Made by a program: the position numbers and the translations under genes. From an uncultured bacterium (lineage in GTDB: Bacteria; CAIJMQ01): 37,305 nucleotides of DNA. This document shows positions 9,555-37,305 of the stretch, piece after piece (the first letter of the stretch is position 1; the number at the start of each line of letters is the position of its first letter). The stretch spans positions 1 through 37,305 of the forward strand of contig CAIJMQ010000018.1 in assembly GCA_903821905.1 (NCBI GenBank), in the 5' to 3' direction. The notes under the pieces were generated by a model. That model was not told where the DNA came from. It searched no databases and saw only the letters and a list, made by a program, of their open reading frames with translations.

Positions 9555-10283
9555 ATGAAAGGATACATCCATTCCATTGAAACATTAGGAGCTCTTGATG
9601 GGCCGGGATTGAGAGTTGTTGTTTTCTTTCAGGGATGTCCTATGCGCTGCAAGTATTGCCAGAACCCTGATACCTGGGCACTTAAAGACGGCATTCTAAC
9701 AGATACCAACACCCTCATCAAAAAAATAGAAAACTACAAACCTTATTTCGGAGTAAAGGGCGGCATTACTGTTTCCGGAGGAGAACCTTTTATGCAAGCG
9801 GAATTCCTTCTTGATTTACTAAAAAATCTAAAGAAAAGAAAAATTAAAACTGTAGTTGATACCTGCGGATATTATCTTTCATCTACCGTAAAAAAATGTA
9901 TTGAATATATGGACTTTGTCCTTCTTGATATAAAACATACCGTTAACACTGAACATAAAAAACTGACAGGAAAATCTCTCACAAATGTACTCAAATTTTT
10001 AAATTACTGCTGCAGCCAAAGAAAAAAACTTTGGATAAGGCAAGTAATTATCCCCGGTATCAATGATACTAAAAAAGACATGCAACAGCTTGCTTGTCTT
10101 GTAAAAGATTGCAAATCCATCCAAAAGATTGAACTGCTTCCTTATCATTTAATGGGCAAGTGGAAATGGAAAAAGTTAGGTAAAAAATATCTATTACAGA
10201 AGAAGAAGGGCCCTACACCTGAAAAAATCCGAAAATTGAAAATTTATTTATCCAGACAATTAAAATGCGCGGATGAAATTTAG
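9555..10283 (+). CDS. pflA: Pyruvate formate-lyase activating enzyme (radical SAM)
   Basis: 242 residues. The radical SAM cluster motif CPMRCKYCQNPDTW (C-x3-C-x2-C) is at about 29-41, followed by GGITVSGGEPFMQAEFL for SAM binding and VDTCGY; this is the short PflA form without extra ferredoxin clusters. It abstracts hydrogen from the PflB glycine to form the stable radical. It follows pflB by 129 bases that contain a repeat, with no good Shine-Dalgarno site, so expression may be lower than for pflB. Its stop codon overlaps the stop of the convergent GH94 gene by four bases. Confidence 0.95.
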   Translation: MKGYIHSIETLGALDGPGLRVVVFFQGCPMRCKYCQNPDTWALKDGILTDTNTLIKKIENYKPYFGVKGGITVSGGEPFMQAEFLLDLLKNLKKRKIKTVVDTCGYYLSSTVKKCIEYMDFVLLDIKHTVNTEHKKLTGKSLTNVLKFLNYCCSQRKKLWIRQVIIPGINDTKKDMQQLACLVKDCKSIQKIELLPYHLMGKWKWKKLGKKYLLQKKKGPTPEKIRKLKIYLSRQLKCADEI

Positions 10284-31938: not shown

Positions 31939-33165
31939 CTATTCAGAAACTACCTGGTTTCTTCCACCTGTTTTTGCTTTATATAATCTTTCATCTGCGT
32001 TCTTTATCAATTCACCTCGCGTTTTGCTATCCGCCGGTAATGAAGAAACGCCGAAACTAACAGTAAGCTTGCCGTTTGGTTGTTTTTCTTCGTTATGGAA
32101 ATGCGTATTTTCTATTTCTTCTTTTAATTTCCGGGCAACAACTACTGCATCTTTCTTTTCCGTGTGGGGAAGAATGATAACAAATTCCTCTCCTCCATAT
32201 CTTGCCACAACATCTCTGCCTTTGGTATTTTTTTTGAATATGTCTGCGACTTTCCAGAGAACTTTATCGCCTGCAACGTGTCCGTTAGTATCATTATAGT
32301 GTTTGAAATAATCTACGTCTGCCATAATCAGCGAAATTGACTGTTCGCCTTTAATTCCCATTTCAGTAAACTCTTCCAGCTTTTCCTGGAAATGGCGATG
32401 ATTATAGATATTAGTGAGTCCATCAGTTATTGAGAGAAATTTAGTCTTTTCAAAAAGCTGTGCATTCTCTACCAGCAAAGATGCTTGGGAAGCGATTGAC
32501 ACCAACAATTCTAACTCCTGTGACAGAAAATCACGGGATTCTTTTGTCAGAACACCTACCATCCCAAAACTTCTCTCTCTTCTTTTTAGGGGGACAACCA
32601 AAATAGAAAAGTAACCCGCTTCTGACAGTTTTTTATATTTGGGGAATGAACTTAAATCGTTGATAAGGTGAGATTGTCCTTTTTGTATAACCTCTTCCCT
32701 TAAATCATCATCTAAAGTAATATTTTTCTCGCCCTCGTATATTTTCACAAAATATTTTTGTTCTTCATCGGAATAGAGTTCAAGAAATAGTATATTTACT
32801 TTTAATAGGTCCTTTATGGCTAAAAGCATCCTTTTAAGCACGGTGTGTAGGTCTTGTTCGGCCGTGAATGCGCTCATTAAATCACGAAGCGTAGAAAGAA
32901 GATGACTTCCTTCGGATTGGTCCGATTGAGTAAGCTCAAGTGTAGTGCTCATTCTCTGGTTTTCCCTCAAAAGATTAGAACTTATTTTATGGAGAGACCA
33001 AAAAGATATGAGTAATAGTATAAATGCAAAAGTATATAGAACAAGCACTGCGGGAATATTTTTGGGGAAAAGAGGAATAATGATTTTGCTGCCAAACCAT
33101 AGAGTAACTAATACTAAACAGGCAACTGATGCAAGAATGTTTGCAACAATACGACTTTTTATCAC
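31939..33165 (-). CDS. Membrane-bound GAF-GGDEF diguanylate cyclase
   Basis: 408 residues. Two membrane helices at about 9-32 and 38-58 form a hairpin with almost no periplasmic loop, followed by a coiled coil (LLRENQRMSTTLELTQ), a GAF domain at about 90-235 (STLRDLMSAFTAEQDLHTVLKRMLLAIKDLLKVNILFLEL, SILVVPLKRRERSFGMVGVL) and a GGDEF domain starting at SITDGLTNIYNHRHF, with the active site ARYGGEEF intact. The inhibitory site reads KGRD where RxxD is needed, so product inhibition is probably weak or lost, unlike the multi-PAS cyclase. The GTG start is two bases after the stop of the ABC ATPase gene, so it belongs to the same operon. Confidence 0.9.
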   Translation of the reverse strand: MIKSRIVANILASVACLVLVTLWFGSKIIIPLFPKNIPAVLVLYTFAFILLLISFWSLHKISSNLLRENQRMSTTLELTQSDQSEGSHLLSTLRDLMSAFTAEQDLHTVLKRMLLAIKDLLKVNILFLELYSDEEQKYFVKIYEGEKNITLDDDLREEVIQKGQSHLINDLSSFPKYKKLSEAGYFSILVVPLKRRERSFGMVGVLTKESRDFLSQELELLVSIASQASLLVENAQLFEKTKFLSITDGLTNIYNHRHFQEKLEEFTEMGIKGEQSISLIMADVDYFKHYNDTNGHVAGDKVLWKVADIFKKNTKGRDVVARYGGEEFVIILPHTEKKDAVVVARKLKEEIENTHFHNEEKQPNGKLTVSFGVSSLPADSKTRGELIKNADERLYKAKTGGRNQVVSE

Positions 33166-33167
33166 GC

Positions 33168-33899
33168 TTATTGTCCCTCGACCGTTCCAACTTCAAGCTC
33201 TATGTCGGCTCTACGTTCTACTCTTTCTATTTTGCCGTCTCTAATCCAGAATATTCTATCCGAGACATCTATCATTTTTAGGTCGTGAGTAGCGGATATT
33301 ATTGTGACTTCCTTTTCTCTGTTTAGAGTTTTGAGAAGTTGTATAATTTCTTTACCTGTATTCAAATCTAAGTTTCCCGTGGGTTCATCTGCCAACACAA
33401 TAGCTGGGTCATTTGCGAGTGCTCGGGCAATAGCTACTCTCTGTTGCTGTCCGCCGGAAAGCTGGAAAGGTTTATGGTGAACTCTGTCGCCCAGACCCAC
33501 ACGGGAAAGTAATGCGACTCCTTTTTCTCTTGAGTCATCTGCACTCATTCCGGCAAATACCATCGGAAGAGTCACATTTTCTAAGGCGCTCATTACGGGT
33601 ATCAAGTTAAATGTCTGGAAAATATATCCTATTTTTCTACACCTCAGCCATGCCAATTCATAGGCATCAAGTTGAGCTACGTCCACCTCATCAATATAAA
33701 CTCTACCTTCAGATGGTTTATCTAAACCGCCTATCATATTAAAAAGGGTGGTCTTTCCGGAACCTGACGGCCCCATTATAGATATGTATTCGCCTCTTTT
33801 AATTTCCATATCTATACCCTTTAGAGCTGGCACCGAGAGCTCACCTAAACGGAAAACTTTCGTTACTCCTCTTGTTCTGACTACATTCTCTGCTGGCAT
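33168..33899 (-). CDS. MacB/LolD-type ABC transporter ATP-binding protein
   Basis: 243 residues. Walker [26 protein letters not shown] (about 41-65), Q-loop [20 protein letters not shown], signature [19 protein letters not shown], Walker [17 protein letters not shown] and the H-loop [24 protein letters not shown]. This is the type VII ABC family (MacB, LolD, FtsE), which drives mechanotransmission through FtsX-like permeases and does not carry substrates through the membrane. The permease gene is 10 bases upstream. ATG at 33899. The function of the pair follows from the permease and is not known. Confidence 0.95.
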
Positions 33900-33909
33900 C
33901 TTATCTTCT

Positions 33910-34554
33910 TTATTCGTCCTTTCTCATAGCATCAGCAGGGACCATTTTCGCTGCTCTGTAAGCAGGATATATGGCACCAACAATTGTAAGTATAACACCA
34001 AAAAAAATTGCAATCATACCAGTTTTAATAATACTTAACCACGGGAATACCTTCCAGATTATACCGCCATATTTTATAAGCGATATCAAAATCATAGACA
34101 AATTTCCTATAATTACTCCTGCCACTGCTCCTATTATACCTTGGAATGCTGATTCTATTAAGAAAAGTTTGACTATGAAGCTATCCAACGCACCAAGACA
34201 TTTCATTGTCCCTATCTCTCTATATCTTTCGGTGACAGACATAAGCATTGCATTTGTAATTCCTACGACACATACCAGAAGAGATAGAGACATTAACCAG
34301 ATTTGTTGGGCTTTTATTCCCACACCGCCTGAAAGTCTTGCTTGAAGATATTCCGGGCCTTTTGTTAAAAGCGCTCCATTAATTGCGATTGATGAAAAAA
34401 TAGACGTCAAAAACGCTATTGCAAAGCTTATTCCCATAATTGTAATTATGGAACGCCCAAGCCTGATTTGGATGGACTGGTAACTCATCTGGATGGCCTT
34501 AAACATGGGTAAAACTATCTGTTTTTCTACTTTCATTTGACCGGTCTCAGCCAT
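33910..34554 (-). CDS. FtsX-like ABC permease lacking the periplasmic core domain
   Basis: 214 residues, half the size of MacB (about 400 with its periplasmic domain). After an N-terminal amphipathic stretch (LPMFKAIQMSYQSIQIRLGRS), TM1 is at about 35-60 and is followed by only about 25 residues (INGALLTKGPEYLQARLSGGVGIKAQQIW) before TM2, where MacB carries a domain of 200 or more. The FtsX core is complete: LLVCVVGITNAMLMSVTERYREIGTMKCLGALDSFIVKLFLIESAFQGIIGAVAGVIIG and the final TM4 with IYPAYRAAKMVPADAMRKDE (AAxxxPxxALR-like). The reading frame is intact and overlaps the PqqD-like gene by 8 bases, so the short form appears natural and not a deletion. Confidence 0.85.
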   Translation of the reverse strand: MAETGQMKVEKQIVLPMFKAIQMSYQSIQIRLGRSIITIMGISFAIAFLTSIFSSIAINGALLTKGPEYLQARLSGGVGIKAQQIWLMSLSLLVCVVGITNAMLMSVTERYREIGTMKCLGALDSFIVKLFLIESAFQGIIGAVAGVIIGNLSMILISLIKYGGIIWKVFPWLSIIKTGMIAIFFGVILTIVGAIYPAYRAAKMVPADAMRKDE

Positions 34555-34930
34555 TATTATTTACTCCATTTCTAGAAATTACCAAGCCTATTATCCTTCT
34601 TTGAGCTAATTTTTTCAAATATTCCAACGTAGAAACTTCCACTTCTTTGCGGTTTAATTGAAATTTTCTCTCTAACTCTATGATTATAGTTTCCACGGAA
34701 TTTTTCCCGTCACATAGTCCCCACATATATGCCCCAAGTTCATCAAGAGTTATAATTTTTTCACTTGGGATAAAAACAATTTTACTAAAAAAATCAATCA
34801 TTTTGCTTTTATCGCGCGGTATATAAAGAATTGCTCCACCTTTTTCGTTTTTCTCCCATCTAATAGAAGCATTCTTGACAGGTTTGGCAAGAAACATTTC
34901 TTCTCTTGTAAGTTTTCGCTTATTTATCAT
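34547..34930 (-). CDS. PqqD-like (RiPP recognition element) protein
   Basis: 127 residues. The C-terminal 75 residues (IPSEKIITLDELGAYMWGLCDGKNSVETIIIELERKFQLNRKEVEVSTLEYLKKLAQRRII) match the PqqD winged helix-turn-helix fold, including the DELGxxxWxLCDG segment. The N-terminal part (KPVKNASIRWEKNEKGGAILYIPRDK) supplies the beta strands. PqqD-type domains bind precursor or leader peptides of ribosomally made peptides and hand them to modifying enzymes. No radical SAM maturase or precursor peptide is in the operon, so the partner is unknown. It overlaps the upstream gene by four bases (ATGA) and the downstream permease by eight. Confidence 0.75.
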   Translation of the reverse strand: MINKRKLTREEMFLAKPVKNASIRWEKNEKGGAILYIPRDKSKMIDFFSKIVFIPSEKIITLDELGAYMWGLCDGKNSVETIIIELERKFQLNRKEVEVSTLEYLKKLAQRRIIGLVISRNGVNNNG

Positions 34931-35883
34931 TTATGGCAAATCACGTCTTTGGACAAATTTTCTAATATAGGATTTTCACCTACAGAAGTAGAAAGAAGGA
35001 CAAAAATCCTGTTAGTTTCCTTACAATACCATACTTTTCCTTCTTTAAGAATATTTTTTCGTGTAAATATTGGAATCCCCCTTTTTTGTATCGCACTAAA
35101 ATTAAATTCAGTATGGTTATTTTTCTCTTCTAACTTTACGCCTGAAAGGTAATTATTATAAATCGCATAAGCTACCGAGAACCATTCTGTTAATTTTTTT
35201 TCTTTCAGAAGCATATTCCCCAAAGCCCATCTTTCAATATCCAAACTGTCCTTTCCTTTATTAAAGCTTAACTTTAAATATCCGGATTTTAAAGAATAAT
35301 CAGCCAACTTGTAATCCTTGGGAGTATGGAAAACGAGGTCGTAAAGTCCCCAGGTCATTTTATCATCAGGGTGGTCTTCCAGAGAACTGTATATTTTACT
35401 GACTATGTCTTTTATATCCTCTTCTTTCTTAGAGTATACCCTCATCAATAAAACTCTTCCACAGGCTTTACAGTACCACGCTATACAAAAAGCTCTGAAA
35501 TTAGATTCTAGAATAAAAAATTCACCATTTCTTTCTTTGGTAAATATTTTTTTTGCTGGTGGGGGTAGTTTTCTTTGAACAGAAAATGGCAGTTTTTTTC
35601 TTTTTGTCTCTTTTTCTATGGTATCTATATTATTGGAAATGATTTTTTCTAAATAAAAGGAAGAGGCAGGTGTATGCCAATAAAGCTCTACTCGGACCAT
35701 AAAACCATCATCCAGAAAAACTTCTCCGTTGGAGTAATCTTTTGATAGTTTTGAAATATTCCATTCTTTGGGATGCAGAAAAGATATGCCTTGCCAGCCA
35801 AAAATGGCAAATTCACCCACGGTGCTTTTGTTAGTTGGACGCTCGGTAGAGGTTTCTATGCTGATGTCTCTATTTTCTTGCAT
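34927..35883 (-). CDS. Unknown tandem-repeat cytoplasmic protein of the PqqD-ABC operon
   Basis: 318 residues; no known family recognised. It consists of two similar halves. Half 1 (about 22-150): GWQGISFLHPKEWNISKLSKDYSNGEVFLDDG ending in IAWYCKACGRVLLMRVYS. Half 2 (about 155-318): TWGLYDLVFHTPKDYKLADYSLKSGYLKLSF ending in VWYCKETNRIFVLLSTS. Both share a W-x-x-F-x-P opening, an S-x-G-x-L strand and a WYCKxxxR close. No signal peptide or membrane segment is visible, so it is probably cytoplasmic. Half 1 has three cysteines in CIAWYCKAC. The start overlaps the Gfo/Idh gene by 28 bases and no Shine-Dalgarno site is seen. Stand-alone function unknown; tight overlaps on both sides tie it to the PqqD-like protein and the transporter. 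Confidence 0.7.
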   Translation of the reverse strand: MQENRDISIETSTERPTNKSTVGEFAIFGWQGISFLHPKEWNISKLSKDYSNGEVFLDDGFMVRVELYWHTPASSFYLEKIISNNIDTIEKETKRKKLPFSVQRKLPPPAKKIFTKERNGEFFILESNFRAFCIAWYCKACGRVLLMRVYSKKEEDIKDIVSKIYSSLEDHPDDKMTWGLYDLVFHTPKDYKLADYSLKSGYLKLSFNKGKDSLDIERWALGNMLLKEKKLTEWFSVAYAIYNNYLSGVKLEEKNNHTEFNFSAIQKRGIPIFTRKNILKEGKVWYCKETNRIFVLLSTSVGENPILENLSKDVICHK

Positions 35884-36779
35884 ATCAGATTGGCTAATTG
35901 TAGTGACTTCAAGCCATCTGTTCCGCTAACTTTCGGTGCCCTGTTATTTTTTATGCAGTCAAGAAAATCTCTGATTTCTTCTTTTAAGGGTTCTTTCTTC
36001 TCTATAGGAACAGACGCCTTTTTAACAGTATTGTTTTCTCCCTTTTCAAGTATATCTATGGTTTGATTAACATAGTCAAGGGAGATATAAGAAGTTGGCT
36101 GAAATACTCTAATTTTTCTCAAAACCTTTTCGCTAACCCTCGATGTTGTTATATTTGCTACACAACCTGAAGAAAAATAGATTCTTGCATTAACAATATC
36201 ACTTGTTTTGGAAAGCACTTTTACACCAAAAGCATCTACCGATTTTATCGGGGAATTAACGAGATTCAAAATTATATCCAAATCGTGAATCATTACTTCC
36301 ATTACTACATTTGTTTCTGTGCCTCTGCCGGGATAAGGTCCTACCCTATGGCATTCGATGAAACGGGGATTGGAAACTATTTCGTACAGTTTTACAACTG
36401 CCGGATTATATCTTTCTACGTGTCCAACCTGAAGAACTAATTTATTGTTTTCTGCCTTCTCAATGAGTTTTGAAACTTCTATCTCGTCTGAAGTAACTAC
36501 TTTTTCAACAAGTACGTTTACACCGTTCATCAAGAAATCTCGAGCTATGGGGTAATGAAATTTAGTGGGGGTAGCTATGCTCACGCCATCTACTTTACCA
36601 ATTAGTTCGTGATAATCTTTATAAGCTTTTGTATTAAACTCCGTAGCTACTTTATCTCTTCGCTCTTTTGAGGCATCACACACTCCTACGAGATTGACAT
36701 CTTCAAAATTAGAATAAACTTTTGCATGCTTTTCTCCCATATAACCTACGCCAATAACAGCGACATGCATTGTTTTCAT
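35856..36779 (-). CDS. Gfo/Idh/MocA-family sugar-nucleotide oxidoreductase (possibly GnnA-like)
   Basis: 307 residues. The NAD(P)-binding Rossmann motif VAVIGVGYMGEKHAKVYSNF is at the start, then VDGVSIATPTKFHYPIARDFLMNGVNVLVEK (the catalytic-region Lys of EKP kept, but EKV instead of EKP), GHVERYNPAVVKL and MEVMIHDLDIILNLV with the active-site HD. The C-terminal domain holds the sheet for dimerisation. Family members oxidise or reduce hydroxyls on sugars, often nucleotide-linked. Neighbouring lpxI suggests UDP-GlcNAc 3-dehydrogenase (GnnA) activity for amide-linked lipid A, but the expected partner aminotransferase GnnB is not in the window. It follows lpxI by 32 bases. Confidence 0.85.
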   Translation of the reverse strand: MKTMHVAVIGVGYMGEKHAKVYSNFEDVNLVGVCDASKERRDKVATEFNTKAYKDYHELIGKVDGVSIATPTKFHYPIARDFLMNGVNVLVEKVVTSDEIEVSKLIEKAENNKLVLQVGHVERYNPAVVKLYEIVSNPRFIECHRVGPYPGRGTETNVVMEVMIHDLDIILNLVNSPIKSVDAFGVKVLSKTSDIVNARIYFSSGCVANITTSRVSEKVLRKIRVFQPTSYISLDYVNQTIDILEKGENNTVKKASVPIEKKEPLKEEIRDFLDCIKNNRAPKVSGTDGLKSLQLANLICKKIETSA

Positions 36780-36811: not shown

Positions 36812-37171
36812 TTAAATCCCTATTAGTGCAATATTGTGGGTATTACATTTTTTTATGAGGGATTTTTTTTCAAGGACTATGGTCTTTCCGGCTTCAAAAG
36901 CAATAGCAGCAATACCCACCTGAGATGCAACTTTTAAGGTTTCTAAGCCTACAACAGGTGGATGATCGAACCTTGAATCCTGGTTGTATCTTGCCACTTT
37001 TACCACAACTGCTCCTTTACCTGCCAATTTACCTCCTCGCAGTATAGTGGGATCTGTACCTTCTATGGATTCTACCGCGAAAATCATTCCTTCCTTTACA
37101 ACTACCGTATGACCTATATCAAGATGAGCAATATTCTTTGCAATCTCCCATCCTAAGTTTATATCAATGTT
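36812..37171 (-). CDS. lpxI: UDP-2,3-diacylglucosamine pyrophosphatase LpxI, C-terminal part only
   Basis: The ORF track starts at an internal ATG (37087), but the same frame continues upstream with clear LpxI sequence: DINLGWEIAKNIAHLDIGHTVVVKEG, then FAVESIEGTDPTILRGGKLAGKGAVVVKVARYNQDSRFDHPPVVGLETLK. This is the C-terminal DUF1009 domain (about 120 of 270 residues), with the conserved AVExIEGTD and RFDxPxxG motifs. LpxI hydrolyses UDP-2,3-diacylglucosamine to lipid X in lipid A synthesis. Homology stops at about 37171 and the frame meets a stop at 37187-37189, so the N-terminal half is missing. The break coincides with a plus-strand COX24-type gene. Either the gene is broken or the contig is chimeric here. 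Confidence 0.85.
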   Translation of the reverse strand, partial: NIDINLGWEIAKNIAHLDIGHTVVVKEGMIFAVESIEGTDPTILRGGKLAGKGAVVVKVARYNQDSRFDHPPVVGLETLKVASQVGIAAIAFEAGKTIVLEKKSLIKKCNTHNIALIGI

Positions 37172-37180
37172 TGGGAGAGT

Positions 37181-37270
37181 ATGTCGTCAGTAAAAAAGAA
37201 GCGTCGCGCCAAAATCGCTCGTCATAAACGCAAAAAACGTCGACGTCGCGATCGTCACAAGAAAAAATAG
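37181..37270 (+). CDS. AURKAIP1/COX24-domain small ribosomal protein (29 aa)
   Basis: ATG at 37181 to TAG, 29 residues: MSSVKKKRRAKIARHKRKK followed by RRRRDRHKKK. This matches the very short basic AURKAIP1/COX24 C-terminal domain proteins, best known from Bacteroidota and relatives (there close to MPSGKKRKRHKMATHKRKKRLRKNRHKKK), related to the extra 30S protein bS22 of actinobacteria. It is too short for the ORF track. GGGAG lies three bases upstream. All nine arginines use CGN codons, whereas neighbouring genes favour AGA, and the local GC is higher. It is therefore probably from another genome or another part of this one. Confidence 0.8.
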   Translation: MSSVKKKRRAKIARHKRKKRRRRDRHKKK

Positions 37271-37305
37271 TCGGCTCAATCGATTATCATGTGGGAATAT
37301 CCTCA

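Follow-up and report, generated by a model that had tools for sequence, protein, structure and literature searches.

Background

Type VII ATP-binding cassette (ABC) systems are recognized by an FtsX-fold permease that is encoded together with a MacB/LolD-type ATPase; MacB, LolCDE, and FtsEX belong to this group. SciW is one of the Eag chaperones, which bind transmembrane segments and stabilize the transmembrane domains of secreted effectors [PMC7773334, PMC12881460]. In the present study, we analyzed a contig of 37,305 nucleotides from an uncultured bacterium (CAIJMQ010000018.1; the whole stretch is called the window here), in which six consecutive minus-strand genes include a type VII permease and ATPase, a PqqD-like protein, and a 318-residue protein with two PsbP/Mog1/DcrB-like folds, which resemble SciW. 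This operon is one half of a larger conserved system of roughly six core genes, probably its cytosolic and ATP-driven half in the cell envelope. No account of the six-gene set was found in the open-licence text of PubMed Central (PMC), and we regard it as undescribed.

Results

The six open reading frames (ORFs) are, in order, a Gfo/Idh oxidoreductase (35856-36779), the 318-residue protein (34927-35883), the PqqD-like protein (34547-34930), a 214-residue FtsX-type permease (33910-34554), the ATPase (33168-33899), and a GAF-GGDEF cyclase (31939-33165). This layout, proposed in an initial annotation made from the window sequence, was confirmed with its coordinates; in gene order, neighbors overlap by 28 (the largest), 4, and 8 bases at the first three junctions and are 10 and 2 bases apart at the last two. 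The genome assembly (G000; G, C, and L number genomes, contigs, and loci) is 1.3 Mb and 84% complete. On its contig C105, apart from the operon, we found a gene for a 1552-residue permease with M28 and FtsX domains, named M28X here (L118:8204-12862), adjoining a gene for a 661-residue OPT-like membrane protein. This pair sits beside hisS-aspS in both G000 and G005, a genome of the same class. The shared placement makes the split a lineage feature, and a binning error was therefore rejected as its cause.

Among the first 60 genomes, the 318-residue and close PqqD genes are adjacent in four others (G004, G005, G044, and G045), and in G044 and G045 they stand after the genes for a giant M28/FtsX protein and an OPT-like protein. 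A scan of 84,980 species genomes with M28X gave 434 relatives, 80 of which were kept for locus analysis. The complete order M28X, OPT-like, 318-residue protein, PqqD, small FtsX, and ATPase was found on one strand at ten loci (L125, L131, L155, L158, L160, L161, L165, L167, L185, and L198). Their hosts are Armatimonadota groups, including a metagenome-assembled genome (MAG) labeled Chthonomonas calidirosea, and Latescibacterota-labeled, Desantisbacteria, and unclassified genomes; the phylum labels are record titles, some of them doubtful, as several Gemmatimonadota-titled records resemble Latescibacterota ones in gene arrangement. The Desantisbacteria locus, L131, is the same contig as G044:C33. 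Most of the genomes studied are MAGs, and gene boundaries in the relatives are those of mechanical ORFs. In the phylum of G045, a profile search detected the 318-residue family in 81 of 85 genomes; the usual order there is M28X, OPT-like, 318-residue protein, PqqD, and ATPase, and the small FtsX is absent.

Linkage was counted over unique loci with enough flanking sequence. The PqqD gene follows the 318-residue gene in 58 of 62 loci. Upstream of the 318-residue gene, OPT-like was found in 47 of 61 loci and M28X in 43 of 52; downstream, the ATPase was present in 34 and the small FtsX in 12 of 52. The initial annotation had regarded the genes as a distinct and undescribed set, and this proposal stands, because the 318-residue and PqqD genes stay linked elsewhere and no radical S-adenosylmethionine (SAM) enzyme lies near 64 PqqD loci (see below).

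In a sample of 290 genomes, mostly of different phyla, the 318-residue gene occurs in 10 and M28X in 14, with all 10 lying within the 14 (hypergeometric 1e-15, not corrected for kinship). Four genomes of the window's phylum that are without the 318-residue gene are also without close PqqD, OPT-like, and M28X genes. The 318-residue gene is missing from 14 of 38 M28X genomes, mostly Omnitrophota. Because so many M28X genomes do without it, we take M28X and the OPT-like protein as the wider core; the 318-residue/PqqD pair is an addition, always accompanied by M28X in the sampled genomes.

M28X begins with a signal-peptide-like sequence, followed by about 800 extracytoplasmic residues (M28/PA-like), transmembrane segments, a MacB-like FtsX domain, and a conserved C-terminal domain. 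It scores 41.4 bits with PF04389 in G000 and 52.6 bits with the FtsX family PF02687. The first 800 residues were modeled with a predicted local distance difference test (pLDDT) score of 90.7, and Foldseek matched the model to M28 aminopeptidases (2ek8, E 8e-25). Of 49 sequences, 48 have Tyr or Phe in place of the zinc His; none of the 49 keeps the general-base Glu, and every one has His at the position of the next Glu. Judging from these replacements, M28X is unlikely to be an aminopeptidase. Position 286 is acidic (Glu or Asp) in 45 of the 49 and Asp368 occurs in 48, and these residues could still bind a metal. The extracytoplasmic part of the G060 M28X (L122:6892-11748) includes a galactose-binding-like F5/8 type C domain. 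The M28X proteins of the 85-genome phylum are longer by about 800 residues, and one of them has a LysM match.

The membrane half of M28X matches the PADLOC model CARF_m8--CARF_LolE_TM (E 3.5e-57 for residues 1250-1529 in G000). Together with the C-terminal domain, it aligns to positions from about 30 to 681/685 of the 810 in the model, with E values down to 5e-62. This match hints that a candidate CRISPR accessory protein shares the permease module of M28X.

The small permease (64 bits with PF02687) matches only the C-terminal domain of FtsX, and about four transmembrane helices and no large periplasmic domain were predicted. The initial annotation had concluded that it has lost periplasmic contact. 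A simple loss was not supported, because the small FtsX belongs to a system in which the second permease, M28X, encoded on another contig here and next door elsewhere, carries a very large extracytoplasmic part and would supply the periplasmic reach. In the ATPase, Walker A, LSGGQ, Walker B, and the H-loop are all intact. It is nearest to LolD, YbbA, and MacB, with 232.8 bits to LolD against an equivalog cut-off of 307.75. The other equivalog cut-offs were also not reached (lolCE, 48 against 362; MacB, 45 against 966), and M28X was far below them. Thus, both FtsX-fold permeases and a MacB/LolD-type ATPase of the type VII group are present. At L081 and L082, PqqD and the ATPase are separated by inserted genes that resemble those for a DNA cytosine methyltransferase and further restriction-modification functions.

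The 318-residue protein is a true tandem repeat, as the initial annotation had suggested; its halves are homologous in profile-profile comparison (probability 96.6, E 6.6e-10). An AlphaFold2 model built from 48 relatives (pLDDT 89.6, pTM 0.84) predicts a PsbP/Mog1/DcrB fold in each half. The nearest solved structures by Foldseek were PsbP (E 8e-5), followed by SciW and DcrB (about 3e-3 to 6e-3), with TM-scores by target of 0.4-0.6 per domain. No PsbP or DcrB Pfam match was obtained at E<=1, and the family found nothing in the PDB by sequence below E 0.27. Neither a signal peptide nor a transmembrane helix was predicted; thus, the protein is probably cytosolic. It has no homology to the C-terminus of M28X. 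The resemblance of its double DcrB/PsbP fold to SciW and the Eag chaperones offers a functional lead. A TatA-like ORF is directly upstream of the 318-residue gene at three loci (L155:17497-17712, L161:18019-18237, and L242:10684-10884), and in L155 and L161 it sits between the OPT-like and 318-residue genes.

The PqqD-like protein is the sole PqqD in the assembly. It scores 44.0 bits with PF05402 (gathering cut-off 23.4) but falls under every NCBIfam PqqD equivalog cut-off. An additional N-terminal region of about 45 residues precedes the family domain. The profile of the protein matches the structures of the peptide-binding TbiB1 and of PqqD. We regard it as a putative peptide-binding adaptor with a winged-helix domain. 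No radical SAM candidate with a CxxxCxxC motif was found near any of the 64 PqqD loci, other maturase types not having been screened, and radical SAM maturation was rejected for this reason. The short ORFs that recur between loci are each restricted to one lineage, and none that could be a precursor is common to different lineages. These results agree with the initial annotation, which had noted neither a radical SAM enzyme nor a precursor. PqqD-like genes without a 318-residue gene adjoin true OPT transporters (PF03169, about 300 bits) in genomes G007 and G041 (L028:4582-7163 and L029:7109-9591); a wider PqqD-OPT association is possible.

The OPT-like protein has about 660 residues and crosses the membrane several times. 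Its profile gave no significant match to two true OPT proteins and a weak one to DUF6785. Genes for DUF6785/DUF6784 membrane proteins often immediately precede M28X (L119:3713-5662, L122:4571-6592, L136, L152, and L189); no mention of DUF6785 was found in open-licence PMC text. In the 85-genome phylum, a conserved small membrane protein of 61-75 residues is encoded between M28X and OPT-like (L026:8392-8583; equivalents in L079, L076, L087, and L073).

Discussion

We tentatively favor, at slightly less than an even chance, a polypeptide-handling envelope machine of the type VII ABC kind, in which the 318-residue protein and PqqD are the cytosolic substrate adaptors. The FtsX and ATPase parts suggest a mechanical machine of the MacB/Lol type. 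On the ATPase, a MacB/LolCDE-like complex would be built from M28X and the small FtsX as an asymmetric pair; in systems that lack the small FtsX, M28X would pair with a second copy of itself. Outside the inner membrane, the M28-like head may bind the end of a peptide or protein. On the cytosolic side, PqqD and the double DcrB fold suggest polypeptide binding, and these two proteins would hold the substrate and then hand it over. The OPT-like protein may serve as a conduit or membrane partner. Such a machine would move, insert, or extract a polypeptide substrate in the envelope, with the cyclase possibly acting as a local regulator.

Several observations weigh against this reading. The cassette holds no conserved substrate gene. 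At one third of the informative loci, no ATPase gene is adjacent, and in Omnitrophota, M28X and OPT-like occur without the 318-residue and PqqD genes. The fold likeness of the 318-residue protein is broad (PsbP, Mog1, and DcrB), and a chaperone role is not singled out. Finally, the OPT-like match to PF03169 is marginal (25.1 bits against 25.8 in G000; E<0.01 in 5 of 17 members, best 1.5e-7). As this match is below the threshold, the OPT-like protein is the component we are least sure of, and its conduit role is weak. A bolder form of the proposal seems to us unlikely: an ATP-driven machine of several little-studied phyla, dedicated to translocating polypeptides or handling membrane proteins, with an M28-like receptor head outside, an OPT-like conduit in the membrane, and a cytosolic PqqD/double-DcrB chaperone pair, unlike described secretion, insertion, or uptake systems.

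The cassette might instead take up nutrients. Outside the inner membrane, the M28-like head would capture peptides or peptide-metal complexes; the OPT-like protein would import them with the aid of the ABC part, and PqqD and the 318-residue protein would gate the transporter from inside. The place of the OPT-like protein within the core cassette and the PqqD-like genes beside true OPT transporters speak for uptake, but the marginal OPT match speaks against it. In addition, none of the type VII ABC systems whose function is known (MacB, LolCDE, and FtsEX) is, to our knowledge, an importer, and we know of no OPT protein that needs an ABC partner. Uptake is the rival that survives best, though we doubt it.

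Signaling is a second alternative, in which M28X would sense an envelope ligand and relay the signal by way of its FtsX helices to the ATPase and the partners in the cytosol; cyclic di-GMP (c-di-GMP) would be the output in the window's lineage. The cyclase, which is membrane-anchored with GAF and GGDEF domains and reads GGEEF at the GGDEF motif, is encoded directly after the ATPase in G000, G005, and G044 and on the opposite strand nearby in L125. The label of CARF_m8--CARF_LolE_TM also suggests a link between related permeases and a sensor domain. However, a same-strand cyclase was found near only 3 of 48 informative loci, and no CARF domain was found in M28X, whose match ends at about model position 681-685. 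Signaling is thus a rather poor prospect. The report to c-di-GMP proposed in the initial annotation is weakened by these counts; c-di-GMP was rejected as the common output, and the cyclase is a lineage-specific accessory gene.

A third possibility is trafficking to the outer membrane, that is, a Lol- or Lpt-like sorting of lipoproteins or lipopolysaccharide. In the window's class, a BamA-OmpH-LpxC-LpxA-LpxI-GnnA run comes immediately before the operon, and LolD is the closest match of the ATPase (233 bits). However, this score is under the LolD cut-off, the lpx neighborhood was not seen at the other cassette loci, and G001 and G002, which are without the system, keep their own FtsX-family permease genes of about 420 residues; a separate Lol-type permease therefore probably exists. 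We consider trafficking improbable. The Gfo/Idh protein is nearest to UDP-GlcNAc 3-dehydrogenase (NF040723, 250 bits; the cut-off of 450 was not reached) and is probably that enzyme (GnnA-like). In G004 and G005, its gene lies within the BamA-OmpH-LpxC-LpxA-LpxI run, the gene names of which were read from the sequences. From this similarity and its position directly after LpxI, it is a lipid A operon gene, and its inclusion in the set by the initial annotation was rejected, since it belongs to the lpx run and neighbors the system in one class only. Next to it on the minus strand of the window, the LpxI C-terminal domain (36812-37087), of the lipid A pathway and not a member of the system, is cut by the contig end. 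The LpxI frame (36812-37305) has a stop about 115 bases from this end, perhaps an assembly error.

Lastly, maturation and export of a ribosomally synthesized and post-translationally modified peptide (RiPP), in which PqqD would present a precursor to its maturase and the product would leave through the ABC complex, is very improbable even though PqqD is a recognized peptide chaperone family, as neither a radical SAM enzyme nor a shared precursor ORF accompanies the PqqD loci and the window's single radical SAM gene (9555-10283) adjoins a pyruvate-formate-lyase-like gene.

A gene set that keeps its order across several candidate phyla and occurs in 81 of 85 genomes in one of them probably serves a basic function in its host cells. 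The proteins that define the cassette carry no family name. The cassette would connect PqqD proteins with a task other than the maturation of peptide cofactors and RiPPs. It also adds a permease architecture with an aminopeptidase-like head, new to the MacB/Lol family, and provides a neighborhood for the function-free DUF6785 genes. Chthonomonas calidirosea is a species with a cultured strain, and as the MAG labeled with this name has the full cassette, the cassette could be tested there.

Comparison with described systems

The domain assignments of the initial annotation (PqqD, FtsX, the LolD/MacB-type ATPase, and GAF with GGDEF) all hold, and they place the cassette close to several known families. 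It shares with MacB, LolCDE, and FtsEX the FtsX-fold permease, the LolD-like ATPase, and a large extracytoplasmic part on a permease. In contrast to them, M28X has an M28-aminopeptidase-like head, extra transmembrane segments, and a unique C-terminal domain; the cassette adds the OPT-like protein, PqqD, and the double DcrB-fold protein, and all NCBIfam equivalog cut-offs are missed. The head has the M28-like fold of the M28 aminopeptidases (BSAP/YwaD, 2ek8), the transferrin receptor, and nicalin, but its catalytic residues are replaced and it is fused to an ABC permease. CARF_m8--CARF_LolE_TM, a candidate type III CRISPR accessory protein, resembles the membrane half and C-terminal domain of M28X, whereas M28X has the M28-like head in front and leaves the last 125 or so model positions unmatched. 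The OPT-like protein is multi-pass with weak similarity to the OPT oligopeptide transporters but under their cut-off; its likeness to DUF6785, whose genes are frequent just before M28X, is weak by profile comparison. The PqqD-like protein is above the Pfam cut-off of the PqqD/RiPP recognition element family, and matches its structures, but differs in its N-terminal extension, its scores under the equivalog cut-offs, and its lack of a nearby radical SAM maturase. Each half of the 318-residue protein is predicted to share the fold of DcrB, SciW (Eag), PsbP, and Mog1; unlike these, the protein carries two copies per chain, has no sequence-family match, and is encoded outside a type VI secretion context.

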